Shown here: in pieces, positions 2,662-62,811 of the stretch
How the letters are laid out: each line of letters starts with the position of its first letter
Numbering within the stretch: the first letter of the stretch is position 1
Origin: Gammaproteobacteria bacterium
GTDB lineage: Bacteria > Pseudomonadota > Gammaproteobacteria > Steroidobacterales > Woeseiaceae
Length of the DNA stretch: 64,000 bases
Assembly: GCA_029884165.1 (NCBI GenBank)
Contig: JAOUIH010000001.1
Coordinates: forward strand, 62,001 to 126,000
Direction of reading: 5' to 3'
The notes under the pieces: model-generated
The model's input: the letters and a program-made list of their open reading frames with translations, nothing else
Database searches by the model: none
Told to the model about the DNA's origin: nothing
Position numbers and translations under genes: made by a program

Positions 2662-3723
2662 GTGGCAAAGAAAAGCACAACAATCGCGCTGACGGCAAGC
2701 GCTGTGATTGCTGCGTTCACCACCGGTGTCGCGCTGGCACAGGCTGCGCGTGACTACATCTACATCGTCGGCTCGTCGACCGTCTATCCTTTCTCGACCG
2801 TCGTCGCCGAGCGCTTCGGCCGCGGCAGCGACTTCAAGACGCCAAAAGTGGAGTCCACGGGCTCCGGCGGCGGCCTGAAGCTGTTTTGCGACGGCGTCGG
2901 GGTAGGCTATCCCGACATTGCGAATTCGTCCCGGGCGATCAAGCAGTCCGAAATCGACGCCTGCGCCGGCAACGGTGTCAGCGAGATCGTCGAGGTCAAG
3001 ATCGGCTATGACGGCATCGTAGTGGCGAATGCCGCGGGCGGCATCGACATGGACCTGTCGAGGCGCGTCATTTTCCTCGCGCTGGCGAAGGAGGTTCCCG
3101 GCGGCGCCGAGGGCACGCTCGTGGCGAACCCGTACTCGACCTGGCGGGACGTCGATCCGTCTTTGCCGAACCAGAAAATCGAAGTCCTCGGGCCGCCGCC
3201 GACCTCCGGCACGCGCGACGCGTTCGTCGAACTGGCGATGGAGGGCGGGTGCTCGACGATACCCTGGATCAAGGCGCTGAAATCGTCCGACGAGAATCGT
3301 TACAAGGGAGTCTGCCATACGATCCGCGAAGACGGCGCATTCATCGAGGCTGGCGAGAACGACAACCTGATCGTCCAGAAGCTCGAATCGAACCCGAACG
3401 CCTTCGGTATTTTCGCCTTCAGTTTCCTCGACCAGAACGGGGACAAGGTGAAGGGCGCGCCGGTGGATGGGGTAACACCGACCTTCGAGTCGATTGCGGA
3501 CGGCAGCTATCCGGTATCGCGGCCGCTGTACTTCTACGTCAAGAAGGCGCACGTCGACGTGATCCCGGGCCTGCGGCAGTTCCTGCGCGAATTCACGAGC
3601 GAAAGGGCCTGGGGCGAGGAGGGCTACCTGTCCGATCGCGGCCTGATCCCGATGCCCGAGGACGAACGCTCGGACGTGGCCGGCGCGGTCAGGGATCTGA
3701 CGCCAATCAGCGGCGCTCGCTGA
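2662..3723 (+). CDS. pstS: Phosphate ABC transporter, periplasmic substrate-binding protein PstS
   Basis: 353-residue periplasmic phosphate-binding protein that delivers phosphate to PstC/PstA. GTG 2662 is chosen because it has a good GGAGG ribosome site 8 bp upstream and begins a typical Sec signal peptide (lysines, hydrophobic run, likely cleavage after ALA at residue 26). Phosphate-pocket motifs are visible: GSSTVYPF near the mature N-terminus, STGSGGGLK, and TSGTRDAF. It is the first gene of pstSCAB and is followed by a perfect hairpin before pstC, consistent with a binding protein being made in excess over the membrane subunits. Probably PhoB-regulated through the candidate box upstream. 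Confidence 0.96.
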   Translation: MAKKSTTIALTASAVIAAFTTGVALAQAARDYIYIVGSSTVYPFSTVVAERFGRGSDFKTPKVESTGSGGGLKLFCDGVGVGYPDIANSSRAIKQSEIDACAGNGVSEIVEVKIGYDGIVVANAAGGIDMDLSRRVIFLALAKEVPGGAEGTLVANPYSTWRDVDPSLPNQKIEVLGPPPTSGTRDAFVELAMEGGCSTIPWIKALKSSDENRYKGVCHTIREDGAFIEAGENDNLIVQKLESNPNAFGIFAFSFLDQNGDKVKGAPVDGVTPTFESIADGSYPVSRPLYFYVKKAHVDVIPGLRQFLREFTSERAWGEEGYLSDRGLIPMPEDERSDVAGAVRDLTPISGAR

Positions 3724-3747
3724 CGACTCGGCCGCTACAATACAAGG

Positions 3748-3779
3748 CCCGCAGGGCGGCCGGATGGCCGCCCTGCGGG
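3748..3779 (+). promoter_or_regulatory. Perfect 14-bp hairpin between pstS and pstC
   Basis: CCCGCAGGGCGGCC (3748-3761) pairs perfectly with GGCCGCCCTGCGGG (3766-3779) around a 4-base GGAT loop. No T-run follows, so it is not a standard intrinsic terminator. Hairpins after the binding-protein gene of ABC operons commonly protect the upstream mRNA or cause partial termination, giving more binding protein than permease; I infer that role here. Confidence 0.75.
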
Positions 3780-3811
3780 GAACCACCAGGCATGCCGCAG
3801 ATAGAAACAAA

Positions 3812-5200
3812 ATGGCTCTGACGACCATCGTGCTGATCCTGACGGGGCTTGCTGTCGCCGGCTATCTTGCCGGCGCCCGGCGCGCCTACGCCTCGGTCGG
3901 TGGTCCGTCGAATCTCCGCCGACTGCATTCGCTGCCGGGCTATCACGGCTTCTTCGTCGCTATCTGCTGCCTGCTGCCGGCTCTGCTGGTTCTCCTGCTA
4001 TGGGTCGTCGTGGAACCGCGCGCAGTTGTCGTGCTCGTGACCCAGGGGCTGCCCGAGGCGGCGCGCGGCCTCTCCGAGGGCGAACTGAACCTGCTGATAA
4101 ACAATATCCGCAACCTGGCCGCGGGAGACGTCGTGTCGGGGCAGGTCGACGCCATGCTGACCGACGCGGCGCTCCGCTACACCGAGCTAAGCCGGCTCGG
4201 GCGTACCCTGTCGGCCGTGCTGGTCTTCGGTATCGCCGTGCTCGGTGCCGTGCTGGCCTGGCGCAGGATCGGCACCGACTTCCGTGCCCGGCACAAGGTC
4301 GAGAGCGTCGTCACGGGTCTCCTCGTCGCCGCGTCGAGCATCGCCATACTGACGACGATCGGCATTGTCGCCTCGGTGCTGTTCGAAGCGATCCGGTTCT
4401 TCCGGGAAGTACCGCTCACGGAATTCCTGTTCGGCCTGAACTGGAGCCCCCAAACAGCGATTCGCGCCGACCAGGTCGGATCGTCGGGCAGCTTCGGCGC
4501 CGTGCCCCTGTTCGCCGGCACGCTCCTGATCACGGCCATTGCCATGGCCGTTGCCGCGCCGGTCGGCCTGATGACGGCGATCTACCTGTCCGAGTATGCG
4601 CCTCCGCGGGTACGCGACGTCGCCAAGCCGCTGCTCGAAGTATTGGCCGGCATACCGACCGTGGTCTATGGCTTTTTCGCGGCGCTCACCGTCGCGCCGG
4701 TCATTCGTTCCGCCGGTGAGGCAATGGGCCTGGCCGTCGCGTCGGAAAGTGCGCTGGCGGCCGGCCTGGTCATGGGCATCATGATCATTCCGCTGGTTTC
4801 GTCGCTGTCGGATGACGCCATCAAGGCCGTGCCGCGGGCCATGCGCGACGGGGCGCTGGGCCTGGGCTCGACGCGTTCCGAGGCGATGCTGCACGTTATC
4901 CTGCCGGCCGCTCTGCCCGGCATCGTGGGCGGCATACTGCTGGCTGTGTCCCGCGCAATCGGCGAAACGATGATCGTCGTCATGGCGGCGGGCCTCGCGG
5001 CCAACCTCACCGCGAACCCGTTCGAGGCCGTTACCACGGTCACCGTGCAGATAGTGACGCTGCTGGTCGGCGACCAGGAATTCGACAGTGCCAAGACGCT
5101 GGCCGCTTTCGCCCTCGGGCTCGTGCTGTTCGTCGTCACGCTTTGCCTGAACGTGCTCGGGCTGCAGTTCGTGCGCAAGTACCGGGAGCAGTACGAGTGA
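3812..5200 (+). CDS. pstC: Phosphate ABC transporter permease PstC
   Basis: 462-residue inner-membrane permease that forms the phosphate channel with PstA. The C-terminal two thirds is a standard binding-protein-dependent permease domain with the EAA loop region (PRAMRDGALGLGSTRSEAM). It is longer than the roughly 320-residue enteric PstC because of an N-terminal region with two extra membrane spans and a soluble segment, as found in several non-enteric gammaproteobacteria. I choose ATG 3812 (MALTTIVL); an upstream in-frame ATG at 3764 lies inside the hairpin. Its TGA overlaps the pstA GTG, indicating translational coupling. Confidence 0.95.
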   Translation: MALTTIVLILTGLAVAGYLAGARRAYASVGGPSNLRRLHSLPGYHGFFVAICCLLPALLVLLLWVVVEPRAVVVLVTQGLPEAARGLSEGELNLLINNIRNLAAGDVVSGQVDAMLTDAALRYTELSRLGRTLSAVLVFGIAVLGAVLAWRRIGTDFRARHKVESVVTGLLVAASSIAILTTIGIVASVLFEAIRFFREVPLTEFLFGLNWSPQTAIRADQVGSSGSFGAVPLFAGTLLITAIAMAVAAPVGLMTAIYLSEYAPPRVRDVAKPLLEVLAGIPTVVYGFFAALTVAPVIRSAGEAMGLAVASESALAAGLVMGIMIIPLVSSLSDDAIKAVPRAMRDGALGLGSTRSEAMLHVILPAALPGIVGGILLAVSRAIGETMIVVMAAGLAANLTANPFEAVTTVTVQIVTLLVGDQEFDSAKTLAAFALGLVLFVVTLCLNVLGLQFVRKYREQYE

Positions 5201-7832: not shown

Positions 7833-8657
7833 TCAGCTCTCGACGTCTCGCAGCAGCTCGTTGAGACCGATCCTGGCGCGTGTCCTGTCGTCAACTCGCT
7901 TGACGATAACCGCACAATACAGGGAATGGCTGCCGTCTGCAGCCGGCAGGCTGCCAGGGACTACGACGGAGCCGGCCGGCACGCGGCCATAGCTGATGCG
8001 GCCGCTTGCGCGTTCGAATATTCGTGTGCTCTGGCCGATAAAAACGCCCATCGACAGCACGGATCCGCGTTCGACGACGACACCCTCGACGATCTCGGAG
8101 CGGGCGCCGATGAAGCAGTCGTCCTCGATGATGGTCGGGCTGGCCTGCAGCGGTTCGAGCACGCCACCGATGCCTACGCCGCCGGAAATGTGCACGTTGG
8201 ACCCTACCTGGGCGCAGCTGCCGATCGTGGCCCAGGTATCGACCATGCTGCCGGCACCCACCCGGGCACCGATGTTGACGAAGCACGGCATCAGCACGAC
8301 GCCCGGTCCGATGTACGCACCGTGCCGAACAATTGTGTCCGGTACGACGCGAACGCGATCGCGCTCGAAGTCATCCTGGCCATACTCTGCATACTTCAGC
8401 GGGACCTTATCGAAGTAGCGATTGTGGCCCGCGTCGATGGTAGAGCTGGCTCGCAGGCGAAAGCTGAGGAGCACGGCTTTTTTCACCCATTCGTTTACGT
8501 GCCAGTGCCCGTCGAGCGGTTCGGCGACACGCAGCGTCCCGTCATCGAGCAGCGCCAGCGTCGCGTCGATCGCTTCGCCGGTTTCGCGGCCAGCCTGCCG
8601 GGCCGGGTCGGCCCAGGCCGCGTCGATGATCGCCTGCAATCTGCGCGGACTCTGCAT
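7833..8657 (-). CDS. dapD: Tetrahydrodipicolinate N-succinyltransferase DapD
   Basis: 274-residue left-handed beta-helix acyltransferase that transfers succinyl from succinyl-CoA to tetrahydrodipicolinate, the step two before DapE. Hexapeptide repeats run from about residue 110 to 225 ([19 protein letters not shown] and following), with the conserved [13 protein letters not shown] segment before them. Start ATG 8657 (MQSPRRLQ) lies 5 bp after the glnD stop and gives the family length; an upstream in-frame ATG at 8714 would overlap glnD by about 50 bp. The aminotransferase gene dapC, often present between glnD and dapD in relatives, is not here. Confidence 0.97.
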
Positions 8658-8662
8658 GCGGC

Positions 8663-11329
8663 TCAGTTCCTCGAATCGATCCGTTCGACGAGCCGGCCGC
8701 TGAGCTCTTCGCACATCGTCTCGTCGAGCGGCTTGTCGTCCCTGTCGACGATATAAAAGACGTCCTCCGCGCGCTCGCCGATCGTCAGGATCTTTGCCGT
8801 ATCGATGTGTATGCCCATCTCGACGAAGACCTGGCCCACCGTGGACAGGAGGCCCGGGCGGTCGGCCGCGACGAGTTCCATCACCGTTCGACGCCGCGCT
8901 CGATCACGATCGAAATACACCGCGGTGCGCGTGGAGAACATGCGCGCCTGTCGCGGCGGCCGCCGCGTGACCCGGACCCCGCCTTCGTCGGCCGCCGTGA
9001 GGACACGGCCGAGCAATCGCCTGACCTTGTTCATCCGCGCTTCGTCAATTTCCACGCGCCGGTCCGCCTCCATGAAGATGTAGGTATCCAGGCTGAAGCC
9101 GTTCGCCAGCGGGACGATACGGGCGTCGGCAATCGTCATGCCGAGTTCGTCCAGTATCGCCGTGGCCATCGCGAACGTCCGCCGCTCCCGCGGCGTGTAG
9201 AGCATCGCTTCGATGCCGTCGCCATTGACCTGCTTGCGCAGCTCGACGAAACCGATACCCGACGCAGGGTCGGAGTCCGCGAGCACCTCGGTGTGCCAGG
9301 CGATCTCACTGTCGCGGTAGCGCAGAAAGTAATCCTCTGTCAGCAGCCGCCAGACGCGCTGGACGTCGGCATCGGCCACCCCGGCGGCGCCGAGCAGTTC
9401 CGCTGCGGCCTGTTTCTTCTCGGCGATCAGTTCCTCGCGGTCGATCGGATTTTCCAGGCCGGCCCGGAGCGCATGCGTCGTTAGTGTGTACAGGTCATGA
9501 AAAAGCGTGGCCTTCCAGGAATTCCACAGCTTGGGATTGGTGCCGCGCACGTCGGCGACGGTGAGCACGTAAAGGTAGTCGAGATGCGTCTGGTCACCGA
9601 CCAGTACCGCAAACTCATTGATCACGTTCGGGTCGCTGATGTCCTTCTTCTGGGCCGTCATCGACAGCACCAGGTGATGCCGTACGAGCCAGGCGACCGT
9701 GCGGGCGTCGTAGGCGCTCATGCCGTGCTCGAGGCAGAACGACTGGGCGTCGACGGCGCCCAGCTCCGAGTGGTCTCCGCCGCGTCCCTTGGCAATGTCG
9801 TGGAACAGGCCGGCGAGATAGGCGATCTCCGGCTTCTCCAGCGACTGCATCACACGGCTGCAGTGCGGATACTCGTGGTCGAAGCGCGTCAACGCGAAGC
9901 GCCGCAGGTTGCTGACCACGAACAGCGTATGCTCATCGACCGTGTAGGCATGAAACAGGTCGTACTGCATGCGGCCCACGATGCGCCCGAAGCTTGGGAT
10001 GTAGAGCCCGAGCACGCCGTACAGGTTCATGCGCCGAAGTTCGTGAGTCACGCCTTCGGGCGCTTTCAGGATGCTGAGGAACAGGCGGTGATTGCGCGGG
10101 TTCTGGCGAAACTCTTCGTCGATCAGGTCGAGGTTGCGCTTGATCAGGCCGACGGTCGTCGCGCTGACGCCTCGCAGCAGCGGGTTCTGCTGCAGCAGCA
10201 GGAACAACTCGAGCAGCGCGGAAGGTTCGCGTGCGAATATGCCGTCATCCACCGCCTGCAGGAACCCGTTCTTGATCTGGAAACGTTCGTTCAGCGGCTC
10301 GGGCTCGGCCGCGGGGTCCATCAGGATCGCTTCCTCGAAAAGCTGCAGCAGCATCTCGTTCAGCCGGCTGAGTTCCATGACCGTCCGGTAATAGCGCTGC
10401 ATCAGCTGTTCGACCGCGAGCGTGTACGTCGCGTCCTCGTAACCGAGCATTTTCGCGAGGTTCGTCTGGTGATCGAACAGCAGCCGGTCCTCGCGGCGTC
10501 CGGTGAGCACGTGGAGCCCGAAGCGCACCCGCCAGAGGAATTCCTCGCATTCGTGCAGGCGCTGCAGCTGGCCGGTCGTCAGGAACCCGCGCGCAACCAG
10601 GTCGTCAAGCGTCGCGACGCCGAAATGGCGCTTAGCCACCCAGCTGATCATCTGCAGGTCGCGGAGCCCGCCAGGGCTCCCCTTGACGTTGGGCTCCAGC
10701 TTGTAGGCCGTGTCGTCATAGCGGTGGTGGCGCTCGATCTGCTCCTTGCGCTTGGCCGCGAAAAATTCGGCCGACGACCACATTCGTTCCGGCGATACGG
10801 CCGCCTGCATGGCGTCGAACAGCTGCGCCGGCCCGGCCAGCAAGCGGGCCTCCATCAACGTCGTTACGACGGTGAGATCGCCGGCGGCCTCGGCGCCGCA
10901 CTGGTCGACACTGCGGACGCTGTGCCCGATCTCGAGCCCGACGTCCCACAGGGCGGTGAGGAAGGCGCCGATGGCTTCTTCACCGCCGCGTGGCAGCGCC
11001 GCCTCCGTCAGCACCAAGATGTCGACATCGGAGTAGGGGTGGAGCTCGCCCCGGCCGTAACCGCCGACGGCGATGAGCGCCAGATCGCCGGCGTGCGGGC
11101 CGCTATGGCTGCGCCAGAGCTCGCACAGCAGGCGGTCGATCAGCAATGCGCGCAGGCGAACGAGTCGCCCGACAGATTCCCCGGCTCGAAATCGCCTGGC
11201 CAGGCTTTGGTCGGCGGCTGCCAGGGCCTCCCGGTAGTGCCGGGGCGCCCCGGGGCCGCCTATGAGGGCCCGCTCGAACTCCAGGAGTGTCGGGTCGGCG
11301 GCCAGCGGGGCTGTCGCGCTCCGGGCCAT
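8663..11329 (-). CDS. glnD: Bifunctional uridylyltransferase/uridylyl-removing enzyme GlnD
   Basis: 888-residue nitrogen sensor that adds UMP to PII proteins when glutamine is low and removes it when glutamine is high. The nucleotidyltransferase motif [15 protein letters not shown] is at residues 89-103. A central HD hydrolase domain shows the [13 protein letters not shown] motif. Two ACT domains occupy roughly the last 190 residues and would bind glutamine. Length matches the family (about 860-900). It lies between map and dapD on the minus strand, with a 13-bp gap to map, so it is probably cotranscribed from map. Confidence 0.97.
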
Positions 11330-15817: not shown

Positions 15818-16546
15818 ATGAGCAGCGACAGTATTCCGAGGCACGTTGCCGTCATCATGGACGGAAACGGGCGCTGGGCCGAGGGGCGGTCGAAGCCTCG
15901 CTATGCCGGTCACCGGGCCGGCATCGGTCCCGTTCGTGAGACGGTGGAGCATGCTGCCAAGCGCGGAATTGCCAGGCTGACTCTGTTTGCCTTCAGCAGT
16001 GAGAATTGGGGCAGGCCCCAGGACGAGGTCAGTCGCCTGATGGGACTGTTTCACGAGGCCCTGCAACGGGAAATCGACGAGTTGCATGCAAACCATGTCC
16101 GGCTCCGGTTCATCGGCGACCGCTCGATGCTGCGGTCGGGCCTGCGCCAGCGGATCGCCGATGCCGAGGCGCTGACGGCGGCCAATGATGGACTCGGCCT
16201 CAATATCGCGGTCGCATACGGCGGCCGCTGGGACATCGCTAACGCCGCGCGGCGGCTCGCGGAACGTGTGGAGAGAGGTGAATTGAAGGCGTCGGCTATC
16301 GACGAGGCCGAGTTCGCCACAGCGCTCTCTCTGACCGGCGAGCCGGACGTCGATCTGCTGATCCGTACCGGCGGCGAACATCGAATCAGCAATTTCCTGC
16401 TCTGGAACCTCGCCTACGCCGAGCTTTATTTCACGGATTGCCTCTGGCCCGACTTCTCGTCTCGGGAATTCGATGCGGCGCTGGCCTTCTTCGGAAGCCG
16501 GGAACGGCGCTACGGACATACCGGCAAGCAGCTGGGGGTCGCCTGA
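15818..16546 (+). CDS. uppS: Undecaprenyl diphosphate synthase
   Basis: 242-residue cis-prenyltransferase that extends farnesyl diphosphate with isopentenyl diphosphate to the C55 carrier for peptidoglycan and O-antigen. The pyrophosphate site IMDGNGRWA has D15; TLFAFSSENWGRP and the C-terminal DLLIRTGGEHRISNFLLWN motif are also present. It consumes isopentenyl diphosphate, so the cell must make this even though dxr is missing from its usual position a few genes downstream. cdsA begins 1 bp after its stop. Confidence 0.97.
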   Translation: MSSDSIPRHVAVIMDGNGRWAEGRSKPRYAGHRAGIGPVRETVEHAAKRGIARLTLFAFSSENWGRPQDEVSRLMGLFHEALQREIDELHANHVRLRFIGDRSMLRSGLRQRIADAEALTAANDGLGLNIAVAYGGRWDIANAARRLAERVERGELKASAIDEAEFATALSLTGEPDVDLLIRTGGEHRISNFLLWNLAYAELYFTDCLWPDFSSREFDAALAFFGSRERRYGHTGKQLGVA

Positions 16547-16547
16547 C

Positions 16548-17339
16548 ATGCTCCGACAGCGCGTGATCACGGCCATCGTGGCCGCGGCGATACTGCTGCT
16601 GGTCCTGTACGTACTTCCGGAGGCGCTGGCGCGGCTCTGCCTGGCGGCCATCTTCGTCGGCGCCGCCTGGGAGTGGTCGGGTCTGCTCGGGCTCGGGTCG
16701 CCGTTGGTCCGGTTCGTTTACGTCGGCCTGATAGGGGTTCTGCAGCTCGCGGCGTTCCTGCTGGTGCCGGCCTCGTTGAGCTATGAATTCGTCCTGGCGA
16801 TCGCTATCGCGTGGTGGCTCGCCGCATTCGCCTGGACCTTCTTTTATCCGACGCCGATTCCCGCCCCGGTCGGCTGGCTGGGAGGCGCGCTCGTGCTGGT
16901 GCCGGCCTATGTTGCGCTCGACTGGCTTTATGGCCAGTCATCGAACCTGCTGTTGTTCATGCTGATCATCGTCTGGGCCGCCGACAGTGGAGCGTATTTT
17001 TCCGGCAGGAAATTCGGTCACGTCAAGCTCGCGCCGGCTATCAGTCCCGGCAAGACCTGGGAAGGCGTCGTCGGCGGACTCCTTGCCGTACTGCTGGTCG
17101 CGGTCCTGCGGGGGCTCTGGACGGGCAACGACCTGGCTGTCCTGGTGCCGTTCTGCATCGCGGTCGCGCTGCTCTCGATAATCGGCGACCTGACGGTCAG
17201 CATGTTCAAGCGCAATGCAGGCGTGAAGGACAGCGGCACCATGTTCCCGGGACACGGCGGGCTACTGGACCGGATCGACAGCGTGACGGCGGCAGCACCC
17301 CTGTTTGCAGCCGGCGTGGCTCTGGCGGGACTGTCCTAA
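16548..17339 (+). CDS. cdsA: Phosphatidate cytidylyltransferase
   Basis: 263-residue polytopic membrane enzyme making CDP-diacylglycerol from phosphatidate and CTP, the branch point for membrane phospholipids. The signature is near the C-terminus: SPGKTWEGVVGG, then the MFKRNAGVKDSGTMFPGHGG stretch and DRIDS. ATG 16548 is chosen because it follows the uppS stop by one base and begins a hydrophobic segment (MLRQRVITAIVAAA). In relatives the next gene is dxr; here a 154-bp gap leads to rseP. Confidence 0.96.
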   Translation: MLRQRVITAIVAAAILLLVLYVLPEALARLCLAAIFVGAAWEWSGLLGLGSPLVRFVYVGLIGVLQLAAFLLVPASLSYEFVLAIAIAWWLAAFAWTFFYPTPIPAPVGWLGGALVLVPAYVALDWLYGQSSNLLLFMLIIVWAADSGAYFSGRKFGHVKLAPAISPGKTWEGVVGGLLAVLLVAVLRGLWTGNDLAVLVPFCIAVALLSIIGDLTVSMFKRNAGVKDSGTMFPGHGGLLDRIDSVTAAAPLFAAGVALAGLS

Positions 17340-17497
17340 TGGGAATGCGGACGTTCAGCGCCCGTTCACCCAGGCACGGCGAGTATGCCCGGGAACTGCG
17401 CCGTGCGGGCATAGTCCTATCCGGAACGCCGGCGGCCGTGCGTAAGGGTGCCCCCGATATGCAAAGATCGCTGTTTTTAAAAGGATTTTGCGAGTGA
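17339..17497 (+). CDS. Doubtful 52-codon ORF between cdsA and rseP
   Basis: A 52-codon frame fills the gap where dxr normally sits. Its ATG overlaps the cdsA stop (TAATG) and its TGA overlaps the rseP GTG (GTGA). The product starts MGMRTFSARSPRHGEY, is basic, has no membrane span and matches nothing I recognise, including Dxr. About 19 of its 51 codons after the start end in A or T, clearly more than in neighbouring genes, so it is more probably non-coding spacer holding a promoter and the rseP ribosome site than a real gene. Confidence 0.2.
   Translation: MGMRTFSARSPRHGEYARELRRAGIVLSGTPAAVRKGAPDMQRSLFLKGFCE
17392..17419 (+). promoter_or_regulatory. Candidate sigma-E promoter upstream of rseP-bamA-skp
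   Basis: GGAACTG (17392-17398) and GTCCTA (17414-17419) are separated by 15 bp. The established sigma-E consensus is GGAACTT and GTCTAA with about 15-16 bp. The same 15-bp spacing is seen in the stronger candidate before rpoE at 53387-53414. bamA, skp, lpxD and rseP are known sigma-E targets in enteric bacteria, which supports the call, but the -10 is only 4 of 6. Confidence 0.4.
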
Positions 17498-18849
17498 CAG
17501 ATGCGCTGACGAGCCTGCTTGCGTTCATCGTGGCCATCAGCGTGCTGGTCGCCGTGCACGAGTTCGGACATTACCTGGTCGGTCGCTGGTGCGGCATGAA
17601 GGTGCTGCGGTTCTCGATCGGTTTCGGCAGGCCGATCTGGACCTGGATCGGCGGCGCGGATCGTACCGAGTACTGCATTTCGACCCTGCCGCTCGGTGGC
17701 TACGTCAAGTTTCTCGACGAGCGGGAAGGGCCGGTCGATCCGGCCGATCGCAATCGCGCATTCAATAACCGGCCTGTCCCGGCGCGGATCGCCGTGCTGC
17801 TGGCGGGGCCGTTCTTCAATTTCCTGTTCGCCGTGCTGGCCTACTGGGTACTGTTCGTCAATGGCGTGCCGACCATGAAGCCGGCGATCGGCACCGTCGA
17901 GCCTGGTTCCTACGCCGACGAGGCCGGCCTCCTGTACGGCGACCGCATCATGGAGATCGCCGGCCGCAAGGTCGTCGACTGGGAAGGCGCGCTCGTCGGC
18001 CTGCTGGAGACCATGGTCAGCGAGAGCAGCATCGAGATGCGGGTCGAGGGCGCGGACGGCTCCTCGCGCGACGTGCGCCTGGATGTCGGCGACGATGCAT
18101 CCCGCCTGACGGAGCCCGGCATGCTGTTCGAGGGCCTCGGCTTCGTGCCGTGGCAGCCCCCGGCGATCGTCGGCGGCCTGTCGGACGACGGGGCGGCAAG
18201 GGCGGCAGGTATCCTTGAGGGGGACCGTATCACCGCGATCGACGGCGAGCCGATCGGCAGTTTCGGGGACCTGCAGCGCGTCGTATCGGCTCGCCCCGAC
18301 CAGGAAGTCGTGGTCCGGGTTCTCCGGGGCAGCGAGCCGCTCGACTTCGAGCTTACGCTCGGCGCTGACGAAAGGGATGGCGCAAGGAGCGGTCTGCTCG
18401 GGGTCAGCGTCAGCCAGTCCGTCTCCGACTACTGGTTCGTCCGGAAATACGGCGTCCTCGGTTCGGTATCCGAGTCGCTGCAGCAGACCTGGGCCTCGAC
18501 GGCTTTCACGGTCAACATGTTTGCGCGCATGCTGACGGGCGATGTGTCGATCAAGAACATCAGCGGCCCGATCAACATCGCCCAGTATGCGGGCGATTCG
18601 GCATCGGCCGGCCTGAACCAGTTCCTTCGTTTCCTGGCATTGGTCAGCATCAGCCTCGGCGTCATTAACCTGCTGCCGGTCCCGGTGCTGGACGGCGGCC
18701 AGATCGTTTACCAGACGATCGAGGGCTTGAAGGGCAGCCCGCTCTCGATGCGCGCCCAGATCGTAGGCCAGCAGGTGGGCATACTGGCACTGCTGCTCCT
18801 GATGAGTTTCGCATTCTACAACGATATCGCGAGGATCCTGGCCGAATGA
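17494..18849 (+). CDS. rseP: Site-2 intramembrane zinc protease RseP
   Basis: 451-residue inner-membrane protease that makes the second cut in the anti-sigma factor RseA to release sigma-E; it also removes signal-peptide remnants. The zinc motif H22-E-F-G-H26 lies in the first membrane span, the third ligand is in LLPVPVLDGGQ near the C-terminus, and two PDZ regions lie between (GTVEPGSYADEAGL and the ARAAGILEGDRI stretch). GTG 17494 is preferred because AAGGA ends 8 bp upstream; a TTG at 17488 is the alternative. Its target RseA is encoded at 54078. bamA overlaps its stop. Confidence 0.96.
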   Translation: MTDALTSLLAFIVAISVLVAVHEFGHYLVGRWCGMKVLRFSIGFGRPIWTWIGGADRTEYCISTLPLGGYVKFLDEREGPVDPADRNRAFNNRPVPARIAVLLAGPFFNFLFAVLAYWVLFVNGVPTMKPAIGTVEPGSYADEAGLLYGDRIMEIAGRKVVDWEGALVGLLETMVSESSIEMRVEGADGSSRDVRLDVGDDASRLTEPGMLFEGLGFVPWQPPAIVGGLSDDGAARAAGILEGDRITAIDGEPIGSFGDLQRVVSARPDQEVVVRVLRGSEPLDFELTLGADERDGARSGLLGVSVSQSVSDYWFVRKYGVLGSVSESLQQTWASTAFTVNMFARMLTGDVSIKNISGPINIAQYAGDSASAGLNQFLRFLALVSISLGVINLLPVPVLDGGQIVYQTIEGLKGSPLSMRAQIVGQQVGILALLLLMSFAFYNDIARILAE

Positions 18850-34764: not shown

Positions 34765-36105
<1,341 letters not shown>

Positions 36106-36125: not shown

Positions 36126-36425
36126 TTGGGAAGCAGCCGTTGGATCAGCCTGGCATTGGCCATCGTCGGCATCGCCCTGCAGGGCGAGCTGTGGCTCGCC
36201 GACGACGGCTTCCGCAAAACGCGTGAACTCCGCCGCGCGGTCGACGAGCAACAGCTGCAGAACGAGGAACTCCGGGCCAGGAACTCGGCGCTCGATGCCG
36301 AGGTGCTGAACCTGAAGCACGGGCGGGAGGCTGCGGAGGAGCGAGCGCGCACCGACCTCGGCATGATCGGCGCCGACGAAACCTTCTACCAGGTCGTCCC
36401 CCCGGAACGGCCCGTCGGCGACTGA
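36126..36425 (+). CDS. ftsB: Cell division protein FtsB
   Basis: 99-residue bitopic divisome protein that works with FtsL and FtsQ. A short cytoplasmic start, one membrane span (about residues 7-24) and a coiled-coil (about 30-70, LQNEELRARNSALDAEV) are visible, followed by EERARTDLGMIGADETFY, typical of FtsB. The TTG start at 36126 is preceded by GAGGGGA at good spacing. Normally ispD and ispF follow ftsB; here truD follows after 8 bp. Confidence 0.92.
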   Translation: MGSSRWISLALAIVGIALQGELWLADDGFRKTRELRRAVDEQQLQNEELRARNSALDAEVLNLKHGREAAEERARTDLGMIGADETFYQVVPPERPVGD

Positions 36426-36433
36426 CGGCCCGC

Positions 36434-37453
36434 TTGGCCGACACCACCAACTACACGCTGCCGGACTGGCCGCGCGCCCACGGCGGCGTGAGCGGGCGGG
36501 CGCTGCTGCGCCAGCAGACGGCCGATTTCCGGGTCACGGAACTGCTCGGCTTCGAGCCGTCCGGCGACGGCGAGCACGATTTCCTGTACGTCGAGAAGAC
36601 CGGCCTCAACACGCCCGAGGTGGCCCGCGAACTGGCGCGCCATGCCGGCATCCATGTTGCCGCTGTCGGCTACGCCGGGCTCAAGGACCGGCAGGCCGTG
36701 ACCCGCCAGTGGTTCAGCGTGCAGTCTCCGCCGAAAAAGCCGCCCGACTGGCAGGCGCTGGCGCGCGACGGCGTCCGGATACTCGAGACCGGCAGGCACC
36801 GCCGCAAGCTCAAGCGAGGCGCGCACAGGGGTAATCATTTCGAGCTGGTCCTGCGGCAAATCGAGGCGGCCCCGGATAAACTCGACGAGCGCCTCGACCG
36901 GATCGCTAATCACGGTGTTCCCAACTATTTCGGCGAACAGCGATTTGGGCGCGATGCGAGCAACCTCGACCTGGCCCGGCAGTTGTTCAGTGGGCGCCGC
37001 TTGCCGCGCGAGCGCCGTTCGCTCGCATTGTCTGCGGCTCGCTCGCTGATCTTCAACGAGGTTCTCGCGGAACGGGTGCGCGCGGGCAGCTGGAACCGAC
37101 TGTTGCCGGGTGACGTCGCGAACCTGGATGGCAGCGGCAGCATCTTCGCCGTCGACGCACTCGACGAGGAACTGGAGCGCAGGGCGGAGGCCTTGGACAT
37201 TCATCCGACCGGGCCGCTGTGGGGCAAAGGCCGCCGGCCGGCACCGGCAGCCGAGGCCGCGATCGCTGCATTGCACGCCGAACTCGCCGAGGGACTGGAA
37301 CGATGGGTCGACGCCGCACGCCGCCCGATGCGCGTCCGGCCGACCGAGCTCCGGTGGCGCCACGAAGACGAGTCGCTCGTGGTCGAATTCGCGCTGCCAT
37401 CGGGCGCGTATGCGACAGCAGTCGTGCGGGAACTCGTTCGCTACGACGACTGA
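36434..37453 (+). CDS. truD: tRNA pseudouridine(13) synthase TruD
   Basis: 339-residue pseudouridine synthase acting on U13 of tRNA-Glu. The catalytic aspartate is D85 in YAGLKDRQAVTRQW, and VPNYFGEQRFGRD and LIFNEVLAERV segments follow. The TTG start has no clear ribosome site and may depend on coupling to ftsB, 8 bp upstream; the next in-frame start would remove conserved residues. It is convergent with the Smr gene, with one base between the two stops. Confidence 0.94.
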   Translation: MADTTNYTLPDWPRAHGGVSGRALLRQQTADFRVTELLGFEPSGDGEHDFLYVEKTGLNTPEVARELARHAGIHVAAVGYAGLKDRQAVTRQWFSVQSPPKKPPDWQALARDGVRILETGRHRRKLKRGAHRGNHFELVLRQIEAAPDKLDERLDRIANHGVPNYFGEQRFGRDASNLDLARQLFSGRRLPRERRSLALSAARSLIFNEVLAERVRAGSWNRLLPGDVANLDGSGSIFAVDALDEELERRAEALDIHPTGPLWGKGRRPAPAAEAAIAALHAELAEGLERWVDAARRPMRVRPTELRWRHEDESLVVEFALPSGAYATAVVRELVRYDD

Positions 37454-38202: not shown

Positions 38203-38946
38203 GTGAAGATCCTGGTCAGCAACGACGACGGCTACCTCGCCCGCGGCATCAATGTGCTGGCCGACGCGTTATCCCGGGTCGCCGACGTCGTGGTCGTCGC
38301 TCCGGACCGCAACCATTCGGGCGCGAGCAACTCACTGACCCTGCATTCACCGCTGCGTGTGCACCGGGTCGAGAACAAGCGCTATTTCGTCAATGGCACG
38401 CCGTCCGATTGCGTGCACCTCGCGCTCGCTGGCCTGCTCGACGAGGATCCGGACCTGGTCGTGTCGGGCGTCAACCACGGCGCCAACCTGGGCGACGACG
38501 TGATCTACTCCGGTACGGTCGCCGCCGCGATGGAAGGCAGGTACCTTGGCTTGCCGGCCATTGCGATTTCACTGGCCGGCCCGCGTCCGACGAACTTCGA
38601 GGCCGCTGCGCGGGTTGCGGTCGAACTGGTGCAGCGGCTCGAGCGCGACAAGCTGCCGGCCGATGTGATGCTCAATGTCAACGTGCCGGACCGGCCATAC
38701 GATGAGCTGAAGGGACTTCGCGCAACCCGCCTCGGTTTCCGGCACCGGTCCGAGCCCCTTATAAAGACCAAGGATCCGCAGGGCAAGACGATCTACTGGA
38801 TCGGGCCGGCCGGTCCCGGCCAGGATGCCGGCCCCGGCACGGACTTCGATGCGGTCGAAAACGGCTACGTCGCGATCAGCCCGCTCAAGGTAGATCTCAC
38901 GCGCCACGAGGCGGTGCCGCGCCTGGACGATTGGCTCAGGCGATGA
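38203..38946 (+). CDS. surE: 5'/3'-nucleotidase SurE
   Basis: 247-residue metal-dependent phosphatase acting on nucleoside monophosphates, linked to stationary-phase survival. The metal site SNDDGY has D8 and D9; [14 protein letters not shown] and [20 protein letters not shown] are the family motifs. GTG start at 38203. pcm overlaps its stop, and nlpD-rpoS follow, the typical stationary-phase group. The 181-bp gap before it, shared with the divergent Smr gene, contains a -10-like TATAGT near 38127 without a good -35. Confidence 0.97.
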
Positions 38947-61293: not shown

Positions 61294-62040
61294 ATGAGTG
61301 GCCGCAAGCGCGTCGAGGGCCAGCCCGCCTGGTTGCTCCACTATCGTCCGTTCCGGGACACCAGCCTGATCCTCGACCTGATCACCCGCGATCACGGTCG
61401 GCTGTCCGTGGTGGCCCGCGGCAGTCGTTCGGCAAGGTCCCGGCTCCGCGGCATCCTGCGGCCGTTTCTGCCGCTCTCGATATCATGGGTCGGGCGTGCC
61501 GAACTCGGGACGATGACCGGGGCCGAAATGAACGGGCCGCCGGTCAGGCTGCTCGGGGACGCGCTGATGTCGGGCTACTACCTCAACGAGTTACTGCTGA
61601 AGCTGGTGCCGCGCCATGACCCGCAGCCGGAAATCTTCGAGGCATACGCTGCGACGATATTCACGCTCCAGTCGGAGCCCGCAGTCGCGCGACGGCTGCG
61701 CGAGTTCGAACTCGAACTGCTGCGCCTCCTCGGCTACGCCGTCGACCTGGAATCCGACTCGGGCGGACGTGCGGCGCTGCGCGCCGATCTGCTGTACGAG
61801 TACCGCGTCGAGCAGGGCGCCGTGCCGGTCAGCCAGCGAGACGGACCGATGATCTTTTCCGGTGCCGAGCTCCAGGCGGTTGCGCGGCGCGACTTCGATC
61901 GTGCGGAGGTGCTGGCATCGGCCGCGCGCCTCCTGCGGGGTGTAATCGCGTATCATTTGGACGGGCGCGAACTGCTCACTCGCAAGGTGCTGCGCGACAT
62001 GCGCAGGACGGCGGGCCCGGAGGCAGGCCGCGAAGACTGA
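61294..62040 (+). CDS. recO: DNA repair protein RecO
   Basis: 248-residue recombination mediator that loads RecA with RecR. The N-terminal OB-fold begins AWLLHYRPFRDTSLILDLITR and continues GRLSVVARGSRS; the helical part contains SGYYLNELLLKLVPRHDPQP. The zinc-cysteine cluster of some RecO proteins is not evident, as in other gammaproteobacteria. It follows era by 27 bp. Confidence 0.95.
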   Translation: MSGRKRVEGQPAWLLHYRPFRDTSLILDLITRDHGRLSVVARGSRSARSRLRGILRPFLPLSISWVGRAELGTMTGAEMNGPPVRLLGDALMSGYYLNELLLKLVPRHDPQPEIFEAYAATIFTLQSEPAVARRLREFELELLRLLGYAVDLESDSGGRAALRADLLYEYRVEQGAVPVSQRDGPMIFSGAELQAVARRDFDRAEVLASAARLLRGVIAYHLDGRELLTRKVLRDMRRTAGPEAGRED

Positions 62041-62082: not shown

Positions 62083-62811
62083 TTGAATCCGATACACCTG
62101 GGCGTCAACGTCGACCATGTTGCGACGCTCCGGCAGGCGCGCGGTACGGTGTACCCGAGCCCGGTCGAGGCTGCGCTGCGAGCCGAATCCGCCGGGGCCG
62201 ACAGCATCACCGTGCATCTCAGGGAGGATCGGCGCCATATCCAGGATGCCGACGTCCGCAAGCTCCGGGAGGCGATGCGCACGCACATGAATCTCGAGAT
62301 GGCGGTGACGGACGAAATGATCGGCATCGCCTGCGACATACGGCCCAGTGATTGCTGCCTGGTGCCGGAACGCCGCGAGGAACTGACGACCGAGGGCGGC
62401 CTCGACGTGGCAAGCCAGGTCGAGCGGGTGCGCGATGCCTGTCGCCGCCTGGCCGCGTGCGGCATCCGGGTGTCGCTGTTCATCGATCCCGACGAACGCC
62501 AGCTGGATGCTGCCGCGGCGGTCGGGGCGCCGGTGGTCGAGCTGCATACCGGCGCGTATGCGGAAGTCGACGGCGATGAACAGCGGAAGGAACTCGAGCG
62601 CGTCGTGCACGCGGCCCGTTACGGTCACAGAAAGGGGCTGACGGTGCATGCGGGCCACGGACTCCACTACGAAAACGTGAAACCGATCGCCGGGATCCCG
62701 GAGATCGTCGAGCTGAACATCGGTCACGCGATTGTTGCGCGGGCGGTATTCGACGGCATGGACGCCGCCGTGCGCGAGATGAAGCGGCTGATGCAGGAGG
62801 CCCGGCGATGA
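62083..62811 (+). CDS. pdxJ: Pyridoxine 5'-phosphate synthase
   Basis: 242-residue TIM-barrel enzyme for the last ring-closing step of vitamin B6 synthesis; its substrate is 1-deoxy-D-xylulose 5-phosphate (DXP) plus 3-amino-2-oxopropyl phosphate. Motifs: [30 protein letters not shown] and [18 protein letters not shown] start. Because PdxJ needs DXP, the DXP synthase should still be present in this genome even if dxr is gone. Confidence 0.97.

Follow-up and report, generated by a model that had tools for sequence, protein, structure and literature searches.

Apparent exchange of the MEP pathway, dxs included, for a mevalonate operon in a gammaproteobacterial family that retains the genes for DXP-dependent vitamin B6 synthesis

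A gammaproteobacterial genome and the GTDB family to which it belongs, probably Woeseiaceae, yield no MEP-pathway genes in our searches, the DXP synthase gene dxs among them, and carry mevalonate genes; they nevertheless keep the DXP-dependent branch of vitamin B6 synthesis formed by PdxA and PdxJ. These observations are best accommodated by a scenario to which, taken as a whole, we assign a probability of roughly 0.85. The ancestor of the family would have come to depend on a mevalonate operon, and the MEP pathway including dxs would have been lost; ispD–ispF and dxr would have been cleanly deleted in place, joining ftsB to truD and cdsA to rseP. IPP and DMAPP would now be made by way of HMG-CoA synthase, a fused HMG-CoA reductase/mevalonate kinase, a GHMP kinase, diphosphomevalonate decarboxylase and a type 1 IPP isomerase, and the PdxA–PdxJ branch would have been retained by purifying selection, with DXP arriving as a small flux from a source other than DXS.

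Two closed junctions mark the sites at which MEP genes reside in relatives (Table 1); both lie in the window, by which we mean the whole 64,000-nucleotide stretch of DNA analyzed (positions 62,001 to 126,000 of contig JAOUIH010000001.1, assembly GCA_029884165.1). At the first, the window reads eno, ftsB, truD, surE, and the 8 bp separating ftsB from truD hold no gene; the corresponding spacing in E. coli is 1189 bp and is occupied by ispD–ispF. The eno–surE stretch was read in about 30 genomes, with the ftsB–truD distance as an approximate measure: all eight MEP-positive genomes of the taxonomic order in which it could be measured hold ispD and ispF within 1167–1381 bp, and 15 family genomes have values of −22 to +27 bp (the source genome of the window included, together with G005, a family genome of 100% completeness on a single contig). 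A first-pass annotation of the window had flagged ispD and ispF as missing from a conserved block, and both the gap and the expected order are genuine, eno–ftsB–ispD–ispF–truD–surE being the arrangement of E. coli and of the eight relatives. Because the junction is closed in all 15 family genomes in which it was measurable, one of them a single contig, chance and gaps in assembly can be excluded as its cause. Four further loci yielded no truD either between ftsB and surE, over an interval of 612–1098 bp (L189 in G038, L193 in G075, L194 in G053 and L197 in G060).

Table 1. Features of the window at the two closed MEP-gene sites and at pdxJ.
Feature	Position	Strand	Support or size
cdsA, CDP-diglyceride synthetase, left side of dxr site	16473..17339	+	37% identity to E. 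coli CdsA over 277 aa
Closed junction, site of dxr in MEP-positive relatives	17340..17487	.	148 bp
rseP, right side of dxr site	17488..18849	+	38% identity to E. coli RseP over 450 aa
eno, enolase, left flank of conserved block	34825..36105	+	PF00113 E 5.8e-126, PF03952 E 8.8e-55
ftsB, cell division protein (DivIC/FtsB)	36126..36425	+	PF04977 E 1.4e-18; 41% identity to E. coli FtsB
Closed junction, site of ispD–ispF in MEP-positive relatives	36426..36433	.	8 bp
truD, tRNA pseudouridine(13) synthase, TTG start assumed	36434..37453	+	PF01142 E 4.5e-62; NCBIfam TruD 424 bits, over cut-off
surE, right flank of conserved block	38203..38946	+	PF01975 E 1e-64
pdxJ, pyridoxine 5′-phosphate synthase, DXP consumer	62083..62811	+	NCBIfam PdxJ 406 bits; 65% identity to E. 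coli PdxJ

The second site tells the same story for dxr, as had likewise been noticed at first pass. The window order here is tsf–pyrH–frr–uppS–cdsA–rseP–bamA, and the 148 bp between cdsA and rseP contain no dxr. Five MEP-positive relatives (L027, L029–L032) have the order cdsA–dxr–rseP; cdsA–rseP without dxr is the arrangement of the window, and was also seen in two family members and one genome of another family (G062).

From three genes gone at two loci the annotation had proposed loss of the whole MEP pathway, a proposal that profile searches support. The genome set comprised the source assembly (4.28 Mb, 296 contigs, 94% complete) and 48 other genomes of its GTDB family (n = 49 together), plus 31 genomes that belong to the same order but to other families; ispF, dxr, ispG, ispH and dxs were searched for in all of them and ispD in the source genome alone. 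None of ispF, dxr, ispG, ispH or a true dxs was found in any of the 49 family genomes, the source genome and the single-contig genome included, a pattern for which gaps in assembly offer no explanation. The source genome also yielded no ispD, its two matches to the IspD profile belonging to other proteins: GlmU (TIGR01173, 612 bits, encoded beside glmS) and a MobA-like protein. No displaced copy of ispD, ispF or dxr was thus found elsewhere in the source assembly, and a genome-wide comparison of the two pathways finds ispD, ispF, dxr, ispG, ispH and dxs absent and HMG-CoA reductase (HMGR) and mvaD present. Among the 31 genomes of other families, 13 carry MEP genes and 18 lack ispF, dxr, ispG, ispH and dxs, with HMGR in 18/18; a dxs above the cut-off is confined to these 13 MEP-positive genomes, all of which have it, such that the order divides cleanly. 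Gene content therefore supports the view that the family as a whole would have lost the MEP pathway and would use mevalonate instead. As to its name, the records with the mvaD closest to that of the source genome share 61–64% protein identity with it, as is seen within the family, and two of them (L097 and L120) are labeled Woeseiaceae.

The family forms one clade in a four-protein tree (support 93), which makes the loss no younger than the family itself. Repeated loss of the MEP pathway within the order, in place of a single event, has in our estimation about even odds: the mevalonate families f15 and f6+f13 are placed among MEP-positive ones in the four-protein tree, and family f4 contains both MEP-positive and mevalonate genomes, although backbone support is only 28–84 and the AU test does not reject one clade of all mevalonate families (p = 0.397).

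The proposal that isoprenoids in the family would come from mevalonate is well supported by the genes present. An operon with the order mvaD, GHMP kinase, HMGR–mevalonate kinase (MVK) fusion (~750 aa) and idi-1 was observed in G001, G005, G007 and G026, with an HMG-CoA synthase (HMGS) gene facing the operon and ispA divergent on its other side. HMGR, MVK, MvaD and Idi-1 of G001 pass curated cut-offs, MVK doing so inside the fusion, and two further G001 proteins are clear homologues that fall below their NCBIfam cut-offs, namely HMGS (165 of 360 bits) and the second GHMP kinase (PMK, 111 of 166 bits), the latter being probably a phosphomevalonate kinase. Of the 49 family genomes, 46 have HMGR and 45 have mvaD, and those without one or the other are at most 84% complete. 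The source genome has both; its mvaD lies on a 3.7 kb contig that carries ispA and mvaD and breaks off early in the kinase gene that comes next. No fused HMGR/MVK gene turned up in this assembly, and it presumably sits in the unassembled part, the sole HMGR found there being a stand-alone protein on another contig, nearer the NADPH type.

Stand-alone HMG-CoA reductases of this kind (~416–426 aa, outside the operon) are carried by several family members, for instance at L045 (contig C214 of the source genome, G000, 3667–4917) and at L054 (contig C58 of G007, 8193–9473); the upstream neighbour is alike at these two loci, and a PEP-utilising-type protein lies downstream in the source genome. The HMGR/MVK fusion gene at L047 spans 8529–10775. 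Three MEP-positive genomes (G051, G056 and G057) have an HMG-CoA reductase too, of ~390–450 aa, yet show no mvaD match.

Two more ambitious readings of the operon were rejected. The fusion is no novelty, since the same two-domain protein occurs in several other phyla (in Calditrichota and Acidobacteriota MAGs, in Cryobacterium and in Virgibacillus), at ~42–53% identity to our query and with no difference of architecture seen. The idea that the mevalonate operon took over the very site of dxs is contradicted, for the loci seen, by the differing neighbourhoods of ispA and dxs: in most MEP-positive relatives ispA directly precedes dxs, followed by folE2 and thiL/rib genes (L254–L260), whereas in the family ispA adjoins the mevalonate operon, divergent from mvaD and with dinB after ispA (L046, L047, L056).

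A swap of the MEP pathway for mevalonate is by itself a known kind of event, of which this family is a family-wide instance. Within the Gammaproteobacteria, mevalonate replaces the MEP pathway in Coxiella and Legionella (PMC9997736, PMC9803151), and a survey of 4,400 bacterial species counted 541 that have mevalonate genes while their MEP genes are missing or incomplete (PMC10663253). Coxiella burnetii, Legionella and Piscirickettsia salmonis resemble the family in possessing mevalonate genes and no MEP pathway; they are, however, host-associated pathogens, whereas family genomes are mostly of 3–5 Mb and keep PdxJ and PdxA. Legionella furthermore lacks a canonical PmvK and, for the most part, HmgS according to a review (PMC13001223), whereas the family operon includes HMGS and, in addition to MvaD, two GHMP kinases. 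Our literature search found no paper on Woeseia and mevalonate or on PdxJ without dxs, which does not show that none exists.

The interest of the case lies instead in the missing source of DXP, dxs being gone while the DXP-dependent B6 branch is kept. The first-pass annotation had reasoned that PdxJ requires DXP and that dxs should therefore remain; the need for DXP does look real, but the retention of dxs fails, and this failed prediction is the most informative part of the case. No DXS exceeded the TIGR00204 cut-off in any of the 49 family genomes, and the best match of the source genome to the dxs model is a transketolase (939 bits against TIGR00232; 74 bits against the dxs model, with a cut-off of 466). 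On the side of demand, pdxJ sits in the window in its usual rnc–era–recO–pdxJ–acpS order, PdxJ is present in 46/49 and PdxA in 45/49 family genomes, and PdxS, the DXP-independent alternative, is present in none of the 49. All 14 catalytic and binding residues of PdxJ that were checked, those for DXP in E. coli among them, are identical to the E. coli enzyme across 13 dxs-less genomes (the source genome included) and 8 dxs-bearing ones, and PdxJ dN/dS is 0.06–0.18 where dS was computable, with dS near saturation. With PdxJ and PdxA retained and PdxS missing, the vitamin B6 route seems to lack nothing but its DXP source, and because the DXP-dependent branch is kept under purifying selection, the cell would still have to obtain DXP.

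The family has no ThiG, the second DXP consumer, and thus probably scavenges thiazole; ThiG does occur outside the family in five dxs-less genomes (G052, G055, G063, G068 and G076, with ThiG loci at L087, L089, L091 and L092), which seem to need DXP for thiazole as well. In these five genomes, and also in G067 and G079, PdxJ is more divergent (E 1e-77 to 1e-84, compared with ~1e-100 elsewhere).

Since vitamin B6 demand lies far below isoprenoid demand, a weak side activity could suffice for DXP, which would most likely be supplied in small amounts by an enzyme that is not DXS. That PdxJ, and ThiG in some relatives, might be fed without DXS by a natural and undescribed DXP synthase or by a retuned central enzyme is a proposition that we believe and doubt in equal measure. 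E. coli offers a precedent, albeit in laboratory mutants: without DXS, trace DXP is still made, and one change in aceE or ribB is enough to lift it to a level that permits growth, such that these dxs suppressors obtain DXP through altered central enzymes (Perez-Gil et al, 2012, PMC3424233). A bypass of this type would be recognised by changes at AceE Q408, L633 or E636, or at RibB G108 or D113; another candidate source would be the MTA–isoprenoid shunt, whose marks are a RubisCO-like protein and a cupin-type methylsulfurylase. Within the DNA stretches searched, no YajO, AceE or RibB from a dxs-less genome of the order was found, and the neighbourhoods of pdxJ, pdxA and thiG, when read, showed no thiamine-diphosphate enzyme.

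Matches to the dxs profile of ~300–400 aa in G017, G032, G050, G055 and G079 turned out to be split transketolase-type proteins, rejected as a general source of DXP because few genomes have them and their genes lie in clusters for polysaccharides or sugar transport. Split transketolase pairs, with N- and C-terminal halves encoded by neighbouring genes, were seen in a few genomes beside an aminotransferase gene within polysaccharide clusters (L239, L240, L241 and L242).

Our preferred scenario could be stated more sharply where DXP is concerned, by invoking a dedicated, undescribed synthase, not recognisably homologous to DXS, common to the dxs-less lineages of the order. Such an enzyme would fit the family-wide conservation of PdxJ and PdxA without dxs or PdxS and the ThiG of the five dxs-less genomes. 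It would also find company among the Dxs-less MEP bacteria, most of which have no known substitute, the survey counting 172 such species (Marshall et al, 2023, PMC10663253); these resemble the family in apparently needing DXP without Dxs, but keep the MEP pathway, whereas the family has lost it and seemingly needs DXP for vitamin B6 only. We nonetheless consider a dedicated synthase rather doubtful, in that no candidate lies beside pdxJ, pdxA or thiG and promiscuous flux from a known enzyme fits the same pattern.

Less plausible again, and in our judgment distinctly unlikely, is that the family imports vitamin B6, with PdxJ and PdxA persisting as idle remnants or serving another reaction. The missing dxs would agree with uptake, as would the probable scavenging of thiazole in a family without ThiG, and in Piscirickettsia salmonis, where DXS is missing as it is here, the absence was interpreted as a cofactor requirement, that is, as auxotrophy (PMC5732189). 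Remnants are, however, expected to decay, and PdxJ has kept every residue checked and is under purifying selection across the family, with PdxA retained alongside it; most family genomes are, moreover, unlike the small genomes of host-dependent bacteria in size. A dxs that is present after all, either too divergent to detect or missed by assembly, is highly improbable: the source assembly is indeed fragmented and incomplete, and proteins of the transketolase fold do give weak matches to the dxs model, but no family genome passes the cut-off (the single-contig genome included), the best match of the source genome is a transketolase, and dxs is found in exactly the 13 genomes with MEP genes.

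Our preferred reading, of a mevalonate-dependent family supplied with a little DXP by an enzyme other than DXS, bears on a wider question, given that many bacteria seem to lack DXS yet keep enzymes that use DXP. In this family vitamin B6 is the one visible use left for DXP, and several near-complete genomes and clean MEP-positive relatives are at hand for comparison, making the search for a DXS substitute a simple question of complementation or gene content. The case would also caution against equating a missing dxs with vitamin B6 auxotrophy.
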